DNA of 25,737 nucleotides from a virus: positions 1-25,737 of IMG/VR virus record IMGVR_UViG_3300042397_000832, one strand, 5' to 3'. Under the pieces are notes generated by a model. The model worked only from the letters and a program-made list of their open reading frames with translations, did not search any database and was not told where the DNA came from. Both the position numbers and the translations under genes were made by a program. Position 1 is the stretch's first letter, and the number at the start of each line of letters is the position of its first letter. Shown here piece by piece: positions 8,967 to 21,858 of the stretch.

Positions 8967-9362
8967 ATGGAATATATTATTGGTTCGGTTATGACTATTG
9001 TTGTAGCCCTAGCAACCATGATCATTGTTAGGATAATTGTAAATAGTAGAAGCCATCCTTTGGTTATTCGTTATAGCCAAAGCAATGTATATGAAAGAAT
9101 TAAGCCAGCAATTCCATTTATGCCACCTCAGAAAAAAGAGTGCCAGTCTTCAAAGCACCAGTCCAGTCAAATGGTTAGAATAATTATGGTTGGCTCTAGG
9201 GCTTATTGGATTTCGGAGAACCAAGTTCTTGAAGCACCAGTATCGCCAGAAGGATTTGTTGATCAAACTATGGCAACGCCTATTGACACAATGGGTATGG
9301 ATAAGGTAGAATTAGAACAGATCGCTTTTATTGTTGAAAAATTGACGGAAGGAAAAAACTGA
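8967..9362 (+). CDS. Membrane-anchored phage protein of unknown function
   Basis: A 131-residue protein with one N-terminal membrane helix (about residues 4-27, rich in I/V/A/T), then a basic turn and a soluble part. Near the C-terminus it has DTMGMDKVELEQIAFIVEKL, a block I recall from uncharacterised phage proteins with the pattern DTMGMDKV. The start is ATG 8967 with a weak AGGG; TTG 8961 is the alternative. The stop overlaps the next ATG (TGATG). Function unknown. Confidence 0.72.
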   Translation: MEYIIGSVMTIVVALATMIIVRIIVNSRSHPLVIRYSQSNVYERIKPAIPFMPPQKKECQSSKHQSSQMVRIIMVGSRAYWISENQVLEAPVSPEGFVDQTMATPIDTMGMDKVELEQIAFIVEKLTEGKN

Positions 9363-9712
9363 TGATCGTAGCAATACAGGGAACCAAAACGTTTGATGAC
9401 TATCAGATATTTCTAAGAGCAATGGGAACAGCACTGCGTGATCTTCCAGAAGGAGACAAAGAGTTTATTGTCTTCTCTGCTGGACCAGTTAACATTAATC
9501 AATTTGGTATGGAGTTTATGAATGTTAACGAAAGAAGCATGAAGGGTTATGGAATCAAGACAAAGTTTGTTAAGGTTCCACCATCTTGGATTGATGAAAA
9601 CATTGATCAAATAAATTACTTTGCCTTCTTCTCTCAACCAAAAGAGACTTGGTCAAAGCAAGCACAAAACGCACACGACAAAGATGCAAATCTTTGGGTG
9701 TACAGATACTAA
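9362..9712 (+). CDS. Conserved phage protein, possible Rossmann/SLOG-like fold
   Basis: A 116-residue protein beginning MIVAIQGTKTFDDYQIF. The start resembles the first strand-loop of SLOG/DprA-type or YspA-like nucleotide-binding proteins, where G-[ST]-[RK]-[TS]-F-x-D is common. The rest (for example NYFAFFSQPKETWSKQA) fits the same fold loosely. It overlaps the membrane protein upstream. It could sense a nucleotide or a ligand; this is a weak fold-level guess. Confidence 0.65.
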   Translation: MIVAIQGTKTFDDYQIFLRAMGTALRDLPEGDKEFIVFSAGPVNINQFGMEFMNVNERSMKGYGIKTKFVKVPPSWIDENIDQINYFAFFSQPKETWSKQAQNAHDKDANLWVYRY

Positions 9713-14233: not shown

Positions 14234-14485
14234 ATGAACAAACCAGACTGGGCAGATCGCCTACAAAGAACATTTAAAAAGAAGTATCAAGAAGGATTTG
14301 ACGAAGGCTATTCCAAGGGGTATGGAGAAGGCTTTGCCGATGGCTCAAGAAAAGCCATTAATGAGTCCAGAAAAGTCTTTATAAAAAGAATACAAAAGGA
14401 ATTGACTTCCTTGCCAGAAAATGGTAAGATTGAATATAAAAGAGGCCTTGAAATGGCTATCGAACTAATTAGTAGGAGAAAATAA
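14234..14485 (+). CDS. Small Gly/Tyr-repeat helical protein
   Basis: An 83-residue protein with AGGAG upstream. After a basic KKKYQ entry it has a 4-residue periodic repeat: EGFDEGYSKGYGEGFADG (about 21-38), G every four residues with F/Y between. The C-terminal half has GKIEYKRGLEMAIELI, resembling the IGKIEYNKGFKAALETVIKLL of the protein at 18852. The repeat is like those of FliH/V-ATPase E-type stalk helices (GxxxG packing). Its TAA overlaps the start of groES. Confidence 0.72.
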   Translation: MNKPDWADRLQRTFKKKYQEGFDEGYSKGYGEGFADGSRKAINESRKVFIKRIQKELTSLPENGKIEYKRGLEMAIELISRRK

Positions 14486-14796
14486 TGATTAAACCTTTAG
14501 AAGATAAGATTGTTGTAAAGCCAATTGTTGAATCAGAAAAGACTTCAGCATCGGGACTTATCATTCAGACACTAGAAAAAGAAAAGCCAACCGAGGGCAT
14601 TGTTGTTGCGGTGGGTACTGGTGCAACCTTTGCTGACGGAAGCAAGATGACTATCGATCTCAAGAAGGGCGACAAGGTTATTTACTCTAAGTACAGTGGC
14701 ACAGAGATTGAGCACCAGGATCAGAACCTGGTAATTCTTCCTTACCGTGACATCTTTGCAGTGATTGTAGACGATGCGGTGAAGTCAAATGATTAG
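14485..14796 (+). CDS. groES: GroES-like co-chaperonin
   Basis: A 103-residue protein starting at the ATG overlapping the upstream stop, with AGGAG before it. It begins IKPLEDKIVVKP, contains the mobile-loop region SEKTSASGLIIQ (17-28), then VVAVGTGATFADG and KKGDKVIYSKYSGTEIE, all typical of Cpn10. The IIQ in place of the usual I-[VL]-[LIV] GroEL-binding triad retains hydrophobicity. Phage co-chaperonins such as T4 gp31 work with host GroEL to fold the major capsid protein. No GroEL is seen in the window, so host GroEL should be the partner. Confidence 0.93.
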   Translation: MIKPLEDKIVVKPIVESEKTSASGLIIQTLEKEKPTEGIVVAVGTGATFADGSKMTIDLKKGDKVIYSKYSGTEIEHQDQNLVILPYRDIFAVIVDDAVKSND

Positions 14797-18321: not shown

Positions 18322-18843
18322 ATGAATAAAACACAAATAACCCTAGCCCTTTCCGCTATCCTTACCCTATCGGTGTCTGGTAGTTCTGTTGCTGCTGGTG
18401 ACACGAACGATACTGCAACGATCGTAACTGTGCAGGCTACCGCACCAGAGTTCAAGCCCAAGGCCACAGTAAAGAAACCTGACGCTAAGAAAAGATTGTC
18501 TGCAGTAGAACTAAAGAATCTTTTGCACAAGGTAGGCTTTCGTGGCAAGGACCTCGTAGAAGCCTGGGGTACTGCGATGAAGGAATCAACAGGCAGACCA
18601 TTCGCACACAACCGTAACAGTAACACAGGAGACAACTCATATGGTCTATTCCAGATCAATATGATTGGCTCACTAGGCCCTGCCAGACTAAAGCAGTTTG
18701 ACCTAGAGAACAACAAAGATTTGTTTGACCCATACACCAACGCTAAGATTGCATTTGAAATGTCTGACGGTGGCAAGAACTGGTCAGCATGGAACGGACT
18801 TACTGAATCAACTAAGTCTTGGATGAAGAAGTTCCCACACTAA
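18322..18843 (+). CDS. Secreted SLT/lysozyme-like muramidase
   Basis: A 173-residue protein. Residues 1-25 form a signal peptide (MNKTQ then LALSAILTLSVSGSSVAA). After a Pro/Lys linker and a helical part (59-83) comes the transglycosylase SLT core, AWGTAMKESTGRPFAHNRNS (81-100) with the presumptive catalytic E88, and SYGLFQIN (106-113), the classical lysozyme-fold block. It would cut glycan strands outside the cell membrane. A signal-carrying lysozyme is unusual as a second lysin beside the M23 peptidase; it could be a SAR-like or virion-injected enzyme or a resuscitation-promoting-factor-like protein. Confidence 0.84.
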   Translation: MNKTQITLALSAILTLSVSGSSVAAGDTNDTATIVTVQATAPEFKPKATVKKPDAKKRLSAVELKNLLHKVGFRGKDLVEAWGTAMKESTGRPFAHNRNSNTGDNSYGLFQINMIGSLGPARLKQFDLENNKDLFDPYTNAKIAFEMSDGGKNWSAWNGLTESTKSWMKKFPH

Positions 18844-18851
18844 GGAGTATC

Positions 18852-19076
18852 ATGGACATAAACAGCATAGCAAACATGCGTCTGTCTGACTTTGAGCAGA
18901 TAGGCAAGATAGAATACAACAAGGGATTTAAGGCTGCACTTGAAACAGTAATTAAATTGTTAGACACACAGATGTGCGAGGACTACCTGGCTGACACGAC
19001 CTGTGATCACGATGGCTGTGCCAAGATGTCCACCCTTGCCGAAGGCCTTTCGGGCGTAAAAAATAACATCGCATAA
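18852..19076 (+). CDS. Small helical Cys-rich protein (RI[IV]xL[LI] family)
   Basis: A 74-residue protein starting at ATG 18852, with AAGGAG at good spacing. It has LSDFEQIGKIEYNKGFKAAL, ETVIKLLDTQ and then a CEDYLADTTCDHDGC segment. The helix and linker resemble those at 14234, 20150, 20693 and 20932. The Cys/His cluster could bind a metal. Function unknown. Confidence 0.7.
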   Translation: MDINSIANMRLSDFEQIGKIEYNKGFKAALETVIKLLDTQMCEDYLADTTCDHDGCAKMSTLAEGLSGVKNNIA

Positions 19077-19106
19077 AGTTCGGCGGTAAATAAGAGAAAC
19101 ATAGCC

Positions 19107-19135
19107 TTGACACAAGGCCTATTCTCCTGTATACT
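19107..19135 (+). promoter_or_regulatory. Sigma-70 promoter
   Basis: TTGACA (19107-19112), 17 bp, TATACT (19130-19135). The predicted start is near 19142, giving a 28-nt leader with AAGGAG before the ATG at 19170. Confidence 0.87.
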
Positions 19136-19169
19136 GGACATATCCAAATATCCCACAATAAGGAGCATA

Positions 19170-19406
19170 ATGCTTGTAGAAATTAAAACTGAAGGCTTTT
19201 CTGCCGTTGTACCCTATCTCCAGACACTTCCTGCCATGCTCGTAATGTCTGTATCCGCAACCAATAACCCAGCAGTCCAAATGAAAAGGACTATGGAACT
19301 ACTTAGGGACAACATTGCCCCCGATCTTGTTGATGAATTTGAGCAACTAAACTCACTCCAGATGCAAGATCTTTTGCAGCAATGGCTTGACAACGCCCTT
19401 GTCTAA
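19170..19406 (+). CDS. Small hydrophobic-start phage protein of unknown function
   Basis: A 78-residue protein starting at ATG 19170 (AAGGAG upstream); the longer frame from 19107 starts inside the -35 box. It has VVPYLQTLPAMLVMSVSATN and ends in a helical EQLNSLQMQDLLQQWLDNALV. It is transcribed from its own strong promoter. No motif recognised. Confidence 0.75.
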   Translation: MLVEIKTEGFSAVVPYLQTLPAMLVMSVSATNNPAVQMKRTMELLRDNIAPDLVDEFEQLNSLQMQDLLQQWLDNALV

Positions 19407-19415
19407 GGGTATAAT
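19387..19415 (+). promoter_or_regulatory. Consensus sigma-70 promoter for the pyrimidine-dimer glycosylase
   Basis: TTGACA (19387-19392), 17 bp, TATAAT (19410-19415): a perfect consensus in both hexamers. It lies in the end of the upstream gene. AAAGGA precedes the ATG at 19451. Confidence 0.9.
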
Positions 19416-19450
19416 TAATATATAAAGTTTCCGTTAAACAAAGGACAAAC

Positions 19451-19933
19451 ATGCAAACTTTTCTACCATATAAATCATTTGTTAATACCGCACGAACTCT
19501 AGACAATAAGCGACTCAACAAGCAGATTCTAGAGTGCTACCAGATCCTTAAGGTTATCTCGTCAAACGACCCTCACGCTGGATGGCGTAACCATCCTGCT
19601 GTCAAGATGTGGCGTGGCTATGAGAAGTCCCTATGGAACTACACTATGTGTATGGTAGATGAAGCGGTTATCCGTGGCATCAGGACAGATGGGAATATGC
19701 GAAACCTATTAGCGTTACGTGAGAATGTAGGACACACATGGGGTTCTGGTGACCCTAAGTGGATGGATGACAAGACCATCATGGCACGTGTCACAACCAC
19801 ACACAAGGCTAATCTATATCGCAAAGACCCAGAGCAGTACTTCGACTTCGCTACCGCCGTCGAATCCAAAAACAATCTACCCTGCTGCGACAGATGCCAG
19901 TACTACTGGGTAACACACAAGGAGACCGTATGA
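19451..19933 (+). CDS. Pyrimidine-dimer DNA glycosylase family protein (endonuclease V type)
   Basis: A 160-residue protein with the Pyr_excise pattern: MQTFLPYKSFVNTARTLDNK (1-20), LNKQILECYQIL, then GWRNHPAVKMWRGYEKSLWNY (44-64). T4 DenV, the family founder, nicks DNA at cyclobutane dimers. The length fits (DenV is 138). The C-terminal CCDRCQYYW adds Cys residues that may be structural. It may repair UV damage, which matters for a surface-water virus. It is driven by the strongest promoter of the window. The family match is good; the activity is inferred. Confidence 0.83.
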   Translation: MQTFLPYKSFVNTARTLDNKRLNKQILECYQILKVISSNDPHAGWRNHPAVKMWRGYEKSLWNYTMCMVDEAVIRGIRTDGNMRNLLALRENVGHTWGSGDPKWMDDKTIMARVTTTHKANLYRKDPEQYFDFATAVESKNNLPCCDRCQYYWVTHKETV

Positions 19934-20157
19934 AACTAATTATCGCAAAGGCTGTTTACTATTCTAGCCTAGCCCTTCTGACCGCTGGTCTGATTACTGG
20001 GGTTATCCTAGTCTTCTACTGGCTACTATCTAATCCACTAGCATTCCAGTTGTTTGTATCGCTGATCGGACTTGGCCTAGGCTTTATTGCTGTTGGTCTT
20101 GCATATGGTTGGTCGGAGAAATATCTGGAAAAAAAGAAGGCCTATCGTAATGATTAA
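19930..20157 (+). CDS. Small membrane protein with two helices
   Basis: A 75-residue protein starting at ATG 19930, overlapping the glycosylase by four bases (AAGGAG upstream). Helix 1 about residues 9-32, helix 2 about 38-62, then a basic SEKYLEKKKAYRND tail. Holin-like topology, but no diagnostic sequence. Its end overlaps the next ATG. Confidence 0.68.
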   Translation: MKLIIAKAVYYSSLALLTAGLITGVILVFYWLLSNPLAFQLFVSLIGLGLGFIAVGLAYGWSEKYLEKKKAYRND

Positions 20158-20362
20158 AGTAGAGAGCGATATGCTCGTATTGGATTCGTCTTTCACCAAG
20201 GAAGATGCCCTGGCTATCAACCAGTTTGTTGAGATCATTAAACGACAAGAACGTGAACGCATCGTCAAACTGCTAGAGAACATCTATGACTATCCTCAAG
20301 AGTGGGATTACGACAATCCTATTGAATCTCTAATCTCTATTATCAAAGGAGCGAACAAATGA
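20150..20362 (+). CDS. Small helical protein (RI[IV]xL[LI] family)
   Basis: A 70-residue protein starting at ATG 20150, eight bases before the upstream stop. It contains QERERIVKLLENIYDYP and ends with SLISIIKGANK. The pattern is a helix ending R-I-V-K-L-L-E, a variable linker, then a short I-x-x-I-K-G end. Similar proteins lie at 18852, 20693 and 20932. Its ATG overlaps a TCGTAAT motif. Confidence 0.68.
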   Translation: MIKVESDMLVLDSSFTKEDALAINQFVEIIKRQERERIVKLLENIYDYPQEWDYDNPIESLISIIKGANK

Positions 20363-20607
20363 TAGGCGATTACTTTGAACAGTTTAGGGAATGGCTAGCG
20401 TTCAAGATTTATCCAGAGTTTGGTTTCTATGTTAAGGTAGCCAAGGCTATGGGAGAACTGAACGAGAACGACAGAATTGTTGAACTCATTGAACAGTCTG
20501 CTTTTAAGAACAAGAAAGCCATCATAGACCTGATTGAAACTAAGTTCACACCATTGAACGATGTTATAGAGAGACTAGACGACGCTTCTGAGGATCAAAC
20601 ATCTTAG
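20359..20607 (+). CDS. Small helical protein of unknown function
   Basis: An 82-residue protein starting at an ATGA overlap. It has YFEQFREWLAFKIYPEFGF, a DRIVELIEQ helix and KAIIDLIETKFTPLNDVIER. The C-terminal part is antisense to a possible minus-strand small gene (20564-20674). No function is proposed. Confidence 0.68.
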   Translation: MIGDYFEQFREWLAFKIYPEFGFYVKVAKAMGELNENDRIVELIEQSAFKNKKAIIDLIETKFTPLNDVIERLDDASEDQTS

Positions 20608-20674
20608 GCCTTTTCTTAGAAGCCTTTCCGTTCTGACGGTCTGAGTTGCGAGAACCTTTAACTTTATTTTTCAT
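20564..20674 (-). CDS. Possible 36-residue basic protein, leaderless, antisense
   Basis: Reading the minus strand from ATG 20674 to the TAA at 20566-20564 gives a 36-residue, very basic protein (MKNKVKGSRNSDRQNGKASK, then KKRPKMFDPQKRRLVSL). The minus-strand TATACT (20686-20681) lies exactly six bases before the ATG, the same layout as the other leaderless promoters. It overlaps the last 44 bases of the plus gene at 20359-20607 and fills the otherwise empty gap 20608-20692. Composition suggests nucleic-acid binding. Its short length makes chance possible. Confidence 0.52.
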   Translation of the reverse strand: MKNKVKGSRNSDRQNGKASKKRPKMFDPQKRRLVSL

Positions 20675-20680
20675 ATAGAA

Positions 20681-20686
20681 AGTATA
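20681..20686 (-). promoter_or_regulatory. Leaderless -10 promoter (minus)
   Basis: TATACT on the minus strand, six bases before the ATG at 20674. No strong -35 box is visible. Confidence 0.5.
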
Positions 20687-20692
20687 CCACAA

Positions 20693-20932
20693 ATGAAACT
20701 ACCAAATATATTTAAATGGCGATTACGCCTAGTCCAGCAAGGCTACGACCTTGGCTGGCAACATGGCTATGAGGCAGGTATGGAAGAAAACCATAAGCAA
20801 ATCATAGACCTATTGAACAAGCACATCCACGATGTTGACTGGCTCAAGGAAGATCCATACACTCGTAAGGAACTTGTAGAGGTCGTCAGGGAACACGCAA
20901 GAGACAAAGAGCCAGTAGGATGGGAGAAGTAA
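20693..20932 (+). CDS. Small helical protein with Gly/Tyr repeats
   Basis: A 79-residue protein. GYDLGWQHGYEAGMEENHKQ (18-37) repeats the Gly-every-four pattern seen at 14234, followed by IIDLLNKHIHDVDWL and RKELVEVVREH. No ribosome site precedes the ATG; a TATACC four bases upstream suggests a near-leaderless start. Function unknown, but the sequence links it to the small-protein family of this region. Confidence 0.68.
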   Translation: MKLPNIFKWRLRLVQQGYDLGWQHGYEAGMEENHKQIIDLLNKHIHDVDWLKEDPYTRKELVEVVREHARDKEPVGWEK

Positions 20933-21180
20933 TGGAGCCAAGAGATCCAGGGTACAGTATCTTTAAAGGTGCAAAACCAGAACCAAACATAGTATACGAA
21001 CTACCAGATGGAACAACAACTATCTGGCTTAGTGAATACATTGATGCTATGGTGCAGGCAGAGCAGGATCGTATCATAAAACTGCTAGAACAAAACAACA
21101 CATGTGCGAATGAGTTGGGGCATGATTACGTTCCAGATTGCTATTGTGAGGCTATCGCTCTTATCAGGGGAGAAATATGA
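20932..21180 (+). CDS. Small protein with RIIKLLE helix and Cys linker
   Basis: An 82-residue protein; ATG 20932 overlaps the upstream TAA, with GGGAGAA before it (ATG 20920 is an alternative). It has AEQDRIIKLLEQNNTCANEL, then C-Y-C and EAIALIRGEI at the end. Helix, Cys linker, I-A-L-I-x-G-E ending is a pattern I recall in many small phage proteins of unknown function. Confidence 0.7.
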   Translation: MEPRDPGYSIFKGAKPEPNIVYELPDGTTTIWLSEYIDAMVQAEQDRIIKLLEQNNTCANELGHDYVPDCYCEAIALIRGEI

Positions 21181-21281
21181 ATGTAGGACAGGCTATGGCC
21201 TATGTAGTAGCGGTTACCTATCTCGCTACGTTTGTGTACTTGATCTTCGTCTGGAACAAAGACGACAAGAACAAGCGTTAA
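21177..21281 (+). CDS. 34-residue single-helix membrane protein
   Basis: A short ORF starting at ATG 21177 (overlapping the TGA of the previous gene) with AGGGGAGAA upstream. It has one hydrophobic helix (residues 7-26) and the charged end NKDDKNKR. The good ribosome site and overlap support it as a real gene, for example a small regulator of a membrane protein. Confidence 0.6.
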   Translation: MNVGQAMAYVVAVTYLATFVYLIFVWNKDDKNKR

Positions 21282-21338: not shown

Positions 21339-21521
21339 ATGAAAGACAAATACAAGTATATGATATTTCCAGATAGAACCTATGTCCTGACATTTGAGTT
21401 TGGATCAGTAGAAGTTAGTGGTGAAGATATACACGCTATGTTTCGTAGAGGTGCACTTCTAGACACTATTCTTGATAACTTATCCACAGATGAAGACTAC
21501 CTTGACATAGGCGAATTATAG
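21339..21521 (+). CDS. Small acidic protein of unknown function (leaderless)
   Basis: A 60-residue protein, MKDKYKYMIFPDRTYVLTFE and then SVEVSGEDIHAMFRRGALLD and an acidic STDEDYLDIGEL end. Last plus-strand gene before the non-coding region. Its coding sequence contains one DnaA box (21480-21488). It might regulate this locus, since its promoter carries the TCGTAAT motif. Confidence 0.68.
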   Translation: MKDKYKYMIFPDRTYVLTFEFGSVEVSGEDIHAMFRRGALLDTILDNLSTDEDYLDIGEL

Positions 21522-21858
21522 GCATAGACCCCCCATTTTTACACAAAGTTATCCACAGTTTTGACTAAGTTATCCACAGATAAATGTTACTGAAAATGGA
21601 TCAAAGTGGAGGACAGTGGAGGAAATAATATTTGTATGGGTAATGGAGCACATTATTAACAGGCTTCGTAATCATTTTCCCACATAACCCCCTATCCAAA
21701 TACCCAAATACCCCCTATCACACATATCCCCATTTGTCAAGTATGCACAATATCCCCAATTTGTCAAGTATTTTTTGTATAATTTTTGGGGAAAAATGTG
21801 CCTCTATCGTAATGTTATTTATATAAACATATATCTTTTTTGCTAAAAGTTATCCACA
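21480..21858 (+). promoter_or_regulatory. Four DnaA boxes (TTATCCACA)
   Basis: Perfect TTATCCACA at 21480-21488, 21549-21557, 21570-21578 and 21850-21858, all on the same strand. The middle pair is 21 bp apart start to start, two helical turns. Four exact copies of a 9-mer in 380 bp, mostly non-coding, is far above chance. These are the consensus sites for bacterial DnaA, which points to host-dependent replication initiation. Confidence 0.75.

Follow-up and report, generated by a model that had tools for sequence, protein, structure and literature searches.

In polymorphic toxins (i.e. those of the contact-dependent inhibition, CDI, and Rhs types), C-terminal tips are exchanged past a conserved junction motif. 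Here we describe a family of small phage proteins in which a conserved protein junction likewise sets off an exchangeable C-terminal part. Two members are encoded in the IMG/VR virus record IMGVR_UViG_3300042397_000832, the whole 25.7-kb stretch of which was analysed (hereafter the window, to which positions refer unless another record is named). The proteins are laid out as a head, a conserved tract ERERIIKLLE (E1), a variable and often Cys-rich tail, and a conserved end IALIKGENK (E2), and phages have swapped these heads and tails among themselves. Polymorphic toxins differ in that they are secreted and large and combine a single conserved N-terminal trunk with toxic tips and immunity genes, whereas in the E1/E2 family both sides of the joint vary and the proteins have 50–100 amino acids (aa). 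No Pfam or PADLOC domain was found in the family tails.

Short conserved sequences at gene boundaries have been described in other phages. In T4-type phages, the Promoter early stem-loop (PeSL) sequences are 'mobile regulatory cassettes' (Arbiol 2010; Comeau 2014; both cited in PMC4503421). As summarized in that source, they resemble E2 in providing short conserved gene-boundary sequences as homology for shuffling small accessory genes, and differ in being intergenic promoter/terminator motifs between which whole genes are shuffled. In the E1/E2 family, by contrast, the E1 joint lies within coding sequence, half-genes are shuffled, and the outer joint is a ribosome-binding site (RBS) plus a start/stop overlap. 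Our joints lie in or overlap coding sequence, with 4-nt gene overlaps, and so do not have the intergenic placement of the early promoter plus stem-loop terminator motif that defines a PeSL. Cluster K mycobacteriophages carry Start-Associated Sequences (SAS/ESAS), AGGAG repeats at small-gene starts that have been suggested as possible recombination targets (PMC3203893). Going by that paper's description, they share with E2 the AGGAG core and the position at a gene start, but they lie upstream of the gene and are not described there as coding a conserved protein end; nor does the paper describe an internal joint or head/tail reassortment. The family differs from these known joints in that one joint is in frame, half-genes are exchanged, and the outer joint serves as protein end, RBS and start codon at once.

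Two members of an undescribed small-protein family

A first-pass annotation of the window had proposed that five or six tiny proteins share a helix and a hydrophobic I-x-x-I-x-G end. All six open reading frames (ORFs) are present (14234, 18852, 20150, 20359, 20693 and 20932), and a loose RI[IV]xL[LI]E-type pattern occurs in four of them (0.004 expected from shuffles). A related, diversified family does exist, but membership is graded and the sure members in the window are two, 20150 and 20932.

To define the family, IMG/VR was scanned with a profile, a peptide-level E2 pattern (90 stretches) and an E1 pattern (at least 120 stretches). Together with earlier searches this gave 255 loci, and an iterated hidden Markov model (HMM) was run over 20,126 ORFs. 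The loci were recruited via E1/E2 peptide motifs, and the contigs are metagenomic and mostly partial. The HMM recovered 289 family ORFs at E<1e-3, in 160 of the 255 loci examined, while the best shuffled ORF reached E=0.89. Heads of family members measure 15–60 aa, which are upper bounds because start codons are uncertain, and often contain YxxGxxxG or a Cys pair; tails measure ~5–40 aa. The two window members, whose heads are unrelated to each other, are composed as follows (HMM E values from the search of the 20,126 ORFs).

20150..20362, + strand: family member 1, 70 aa (HMM E=1.5e-14)
20150-20248, + strand: head of member 1, found in relatives with at least five other tails
20249..20278, + strand: E1 joint of member 1, GAACGTGAACGCATCGTCAAACTGCTAGAG, encoding ERERIVKLLE
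20279..20332, + strand: tail of member 1, NIYDYPQEWDYDNPIESL; similar tails occur on unrelated heads in loci L032 and L064
20333..20362, + strand: E2 end of member 1, ATCTCTATTATCAAAGGAGCGAACAAATGA, encoding ISIIKGANK*, with AAAGGAG and an ATGA overlap with gene 20359
20932..21180, + strand: family member 2, 82 aa (HMM E=1.2e-15)
20932-21060, + strand: head of member 2, found in relatives with three alternative tails
21061..21090, + strand: E1 joint of member 2, EQDRIIKLLE, where DNA identity to L004 ends
21091..21153, + strand: tail of member 2, QNNTCANELGHDYVPDCYCEA (Cys/His); unrelated heads in L025 and L044 carry a similar one
21154..21180, + strand: E2 end of member 2, ATCGCTCTTATCAGGGGAGAAATATGA, encoding IALIRGEI*, with AGGGGAG and an ATGA overlap with ORF 21177
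21177..21281, + strand: 34-aa hydrophobic ORF (MNVGQAMAYVVAVTYLATFVYLIF...), read from the sequence, starting within the end of member 2

The grouping might reflect nothing but generic helix composition, since charged-hydrophobic helices are alike, an objection that the first-pass annotation had itself raised. This suits 20359 and 20693, whose profile support is weak (see below), but it is contradicted for 20150 and 20932 by HMM values of E <=1.5e-14, against about 1 in shuffled controls, and by kinship visible at the DNA level. For the family as a whole we regard it as highly improbable.

The family appears to be undescribed. It has no matching entry in Pfam, PHROGs, NCBIfam or PADLOC; no convincing copy was found in 50,697 deposited phage records (tblastn with four members; blastn with the 30-nt E1 and 33-nt E2); none of 131 pattern matches in 84,980 bacterial and archaeal genomes (GTDB) was confirmed as a relative; and the motif strings were not found in the literature searched. 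The 30-nt E1 DNA finds its best match (E=0.01; 29 nt at 90%) in hypothetical proteins of five Phocaeicola phage records (e.g. OP172740, 25371-25399), probably by chance. Two unusual members deserve mention. One gene (L024, 8497-8931) fuses a glutaredoxin domain (Pfam, 1.6e-7), one of the few heads with a recognizable domain, to a complete family member; another (L069, 9815-10183) contains two E1 motifs in series, as expected from unequal recombination between adjacent members.

Exchange of heads and tails between phages

Each of the 32 multi-member head clusters combines with two or more tail types, and 30 of 33 tail clusters combine with two or more head types, although the largest tail cluster is partly a single-linkage artefact and inflated. 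Pairs of members with the same head have unrelated tails in 74 of 81 cases. Unrelated C-tails (35% vs 9%) and unrelated heads (44% vs 4%) are more frequent in the family than among the remaining small ORFs of these contigs, and the true contrast is probably larger because the control set includes antisense ORFs.

DNA alignments of family members break at E1 and E2. For example, L023 and L026 are nearly identical from E1 through the tail to E2, while their heads and downstream DNA are unrelated; L026 in turn has its head in common with L035, and similarity is lost past E1. The head of 20932 is close to those of L004 and L007, similarity collapses past AAACTGCTAG, and for L004 it resumes at ATCGCTCTTATCA. 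In nine related phages the gene order of the window locus (lysozyme-like - 18852 - 19170 - 19451 - transmembrane - 20150 - 20359 - 20693 - 20932 - 21339) is kept, with some genes moved or missing, and the tails of 20150 and 20932 are switched. Contig L130 is a recombinant: over about 9341-9700 it matches L066 with 100% identity, and outside this block it follows L003. These results show that phages have exchanged heads and tails with one another, the breakpoints falling at the E1 tract and at the gene junction of E2. Next to one tail swap lies a 49-aa ORF (L006, 5989-6138, equivalent to L130 9165-9314) that resembles an in-frame fusion of 20693 and 20932 parts and is possibly a recombination scar.

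The first-pass annotation had tentatively attributed the repeated genes to duplication and diversification. Long records do carry several members (1–5 copies in 28 of 30) and some family runs are in tandem (55 of 219), as plain duplication and divergence within genomes would produce, with rapid tail evolution only mimicking swaps. This account fails on the unrelated heads of the two sure members, and on near-identical tail DNA joined to unrelated heads in different phages, the converse being observed as well; the recombinant contig also speaks against it. Moreover, paralogues within a contig are no more alike at E1 than other members (0.559 vs 0.539, with 62 of 300 permutations as high), so that exchange takes place mainly between phages. 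We consider duplication with rapid tail evolution distinctly unlikely.

Nature of the E1 and E2 tracts

Codon usage in E1 is strongly biased (CGC 86% vs 23% background, CTA 70% vs 19%, CTG 59% vs 14%). The bias, together with nearly identical E1 DNA in unrelated genes, would suit a DNA-level element (e.g. a recombination hot spot, a promoter or the boundary of a mobile cassette) whose encoded helix is incidental. Such an element is nevertheless unlikely, because the amino acids of E1 are kept while its synonymous sites diverge (dS about 1.4 and dN/dS 0.14 between random members), and because E1 codons in same-head pairs are no more conserved than those of the heads (codon identity 0.65 vs 0.71). 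The same comparison and dS led us to reject E1 as a specially constrained DNA site, the candidate that the codon bias had suggested. To judge from these substitution patterns, E1 is conserved as a protein helix; its DNA likeness can be explained by shared descent through exchange and would in turn supply homology for further exchange.

The ratio dN/dS is 0.14 in heads and 0.13 in tails. Such purifying selection indicates that both parts belong to working proteins. AlphaFold predicts a two-helix hairpin for a typical member (L049; helices 3-38 and 45-58, mean pLDDT 88); for 20932 it gives, with lower confidence (mean pLDDT 73), a small beta head followed by helices 34-55 and 72-78.

The E2 end has a different character. 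The codons of IKGENK* read ATC AAG GGA GAG AAC AAG TGA or ATC AAA GGA GAA AAC AAA TGA, so that the DNA presents AAGGGAG or AAAGGAG and then overlaps the following gene through ATGA or GTGA. Codon usage follows suit: Gly is encoded by GGA in 90% of cases (background 20%), and ATC reaches 91% (background 35%). A Shine–Dalgarno sequence with a downstream ORF start within 40 nt is found for 155 of the 197 E2-ended members, compared with 346 of 1500 control ORFs, and 116 of the 197 have an exact 4-nt overlap with the downstream ORF. In the window, the end of member 1 (20362) overlaps the start of 20359, and that of member 2 (21180) overlaps ORF 21177. The KGENK end also occurs on non-family ORFs of the same contigs. 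The IKGENK end thus largely encodes the Shine–Dalgarno sequence and overlapping start of the next gene, and not a binding motif, while A-I-A-L-I ahead of it corresponds to the second helix of the predicted hairpin. The I-x-x-I-x-G end of the first-pass annotation is real, but it is a composite of this second helix and the next gene's Shine–Dalgarno sequence, mostly RBS and start. This exposes a trap: a conserved protein end may be a ribosome-binding site in disguise.

It could be argued that the genes are near-neutral filler ORFs, whose conserved ends persist only as ribosome-binding sites of their neighbours. E2 is largely such a site and also ends non-members, and the proteins contain no known domain. 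Filler ORFs, however, would not account for dN/dS of about 0.13-0.14 in heads and tails, for a confidently predicted fold, or for E1, which is distant from the RBS yet conserved in protein sequence. We find this account as improbable as that of a DNA-level element.

The other window genes and a proposed adaptor role

The remaining four ORFs of the proposed group relate to the family to different degrees. The family HMM gives 0.11 for 18852, 0.11 for 20359 and 0.62 for 20693, and does not report 14234 up to E=10. Profile comparison (hhalign probabilities in the list below; 0.3-0.4% for two unrelated neighbour genes used as controls) favours the proposed kinship for 18852 and 14234 and not for 20359 and 20693. 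These are single comparisons of few sequences (Neff about 2), so that the middle values are leads and not proof.

18852..19076, + strand: probable distant relative, YNKGFKAALETVIKLLD helix and C-x8-C-x-H-x2-C tail (hhalign 83%)
14234..14485, + strand: possible distant relative or head donor, MNKPDWADRLQRTF head and Gly/Tyr repeat (hhalign 80%)
20359..20607, + strand: separate small-protein family with only DRIVELIE in common (hhalign 21% over 24 columns; HMM E=0.11)
20693..20932, + strand: separate, widely conserved small-protein family with the same helix layout, YDLGWQHGYEAG...QIIDLLN (hhalign 27%)

The Cys/His tail of 18852, in which C/C/H/C is conserved, resembles family tails (best phmmer values 0.0046 and 0.0065, with 2e-4 for a near relative), and 18852 is plausibly a distant relative of the family. 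The N-terminus of 14234 recurs as the head of a family member (L034_9944, 1e-4), which suggests that 14234 is possibly a distant relative or a head donor. The Gly/Tyr repeat noted in two of the proteins is real: 14234 and 20693 share it (hhalign 81%), and it is also present in many family heads. It recalls the deca-GX3 motif of Yae1_N (PF09811): the GxxxG repeats of 14234 fit that model (E=4.8e-5), but the score of 23.4 bits lies below the curated cut-off of 27.5 bits and the rest of Yae1 is absent; 20693 scores 13.7, also under the cut-off. Because profile support beyond the helix motif is weak and they have orthologue families of their own (the C-terminal half of 20693 is conserved among its orthologues), 20359 and 20693 were rejected as family members.

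The window also encodes WhiB, GroES (Cpn10, 3.2e-29, at 14485-14796), an M23 peptidase, GDP-mannose dehydratase, SNase, dNMP kinase, a pyrimidine-dimer glycosylase and eight tRNAs. WhiB, which has been described as a key marker for actinophages (PMC10202952), occurs in 26 of the 31 records tested, which comprised the window and 30 long records from relatives. This points to (mostly) actinophages as carriers of the family. The guanine–cytosine content is 42% in the window, with a median of 47% over the relatives' loci. A lysozyme-like SLT_3 protein with a signal-like N-terminus (PF18896, 3.9e-18; 18322-18843) is encoded directly 5' of the small-gene array, in the window and relatives alike. Just after the array and ahead of minus-strand genes, the DnaA box TTATCCACA occurs in four perfect copies, where 0.24 would be expected by chance, all on the + strand within 380 bp (21480-21858); this cluster is likely a replication origin.

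Taken together, we think it probable, though far from certain, that the E1/E2 genes form a family of hairpin proteins built as head, E1, tail and E2, whose parts are swapped by recombination at E1 and E2, the adaptor role discussed below being the least certain element. Exchange probably proceeds by ordinary homologous recombination through the two conserved tracts, and many of the phages encode RecA (15 of 28 records). E1 would be retained as a structural helix of the hairpin scaffold. Most likely the hairpin acts as a constant connector: whatever head or loop is attached at E1 would still fold, so that crossovers there and at the gene junction would give viable new proteins. The least certain steps are that (i) the hairpin may serve as a docking or oligomerization platform; (ii) the swappable heads and Cys-containing loops may set what is bound; and (iii) the proteins may act as non-essential host-takeover or counter-defence adaptors, their repertoire refreshed by swapping.

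Several points weigh against this reading. Recruitment of loci by motif inflates motif conservation, although the wobble-codon, head and tail results are unaffected, and one large tail cluster is inflated as noted above. Synonymous sites of E1 diverge as fast as those of heads, which argues against a specially preserved DNA recombination site. In the recombinant contig L130 the left crossover lies within the shared head and not in E1, and the right crossover close to where the next gene ends; in this event a tail was therefore transferred together with one complete gene. The permutation comparison revealed no within-genome homogenization or gene conversion at E1. RecA is limited to about half of the 28 records and RecT is absent from them all, so that RecT was rejected as the recombinase. 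Foldseek gave no significant structural match for the family models. Finally, our best guess at function is a hairpin adaptor whose specificity parts can be exchanged; its host-takeover or counter-defence side is conjectured from small size, apparent dispensability (copy number and content vary) and rapid reassortment. That family members bind different host targets, as the first-pass annotation proposed, is in the same sense a reasonable guess.

Phage genomes are full of small unannotated genes, which are believed to include many host-takeover functions and most of which look orphan. In the E1/E2 family, many orphan-looking small proteins of uncultured actinophages share a connector helix and are recombinants drawn from one pool of heads and tails, which allows them to be sorted by module and not singly. 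A bolder and rather doubtful extension is that actinophages share a combinatorial effector pool, in which a fixed hairpin connector, flanked by DNA joints, would allow new proteins to be put together from common heads and Cys-finger loops, in cassettes that carry the next gene's RBS. If true, the array would be a natural domain-shuffling library of small host-binding proteins in the arms race with the host.

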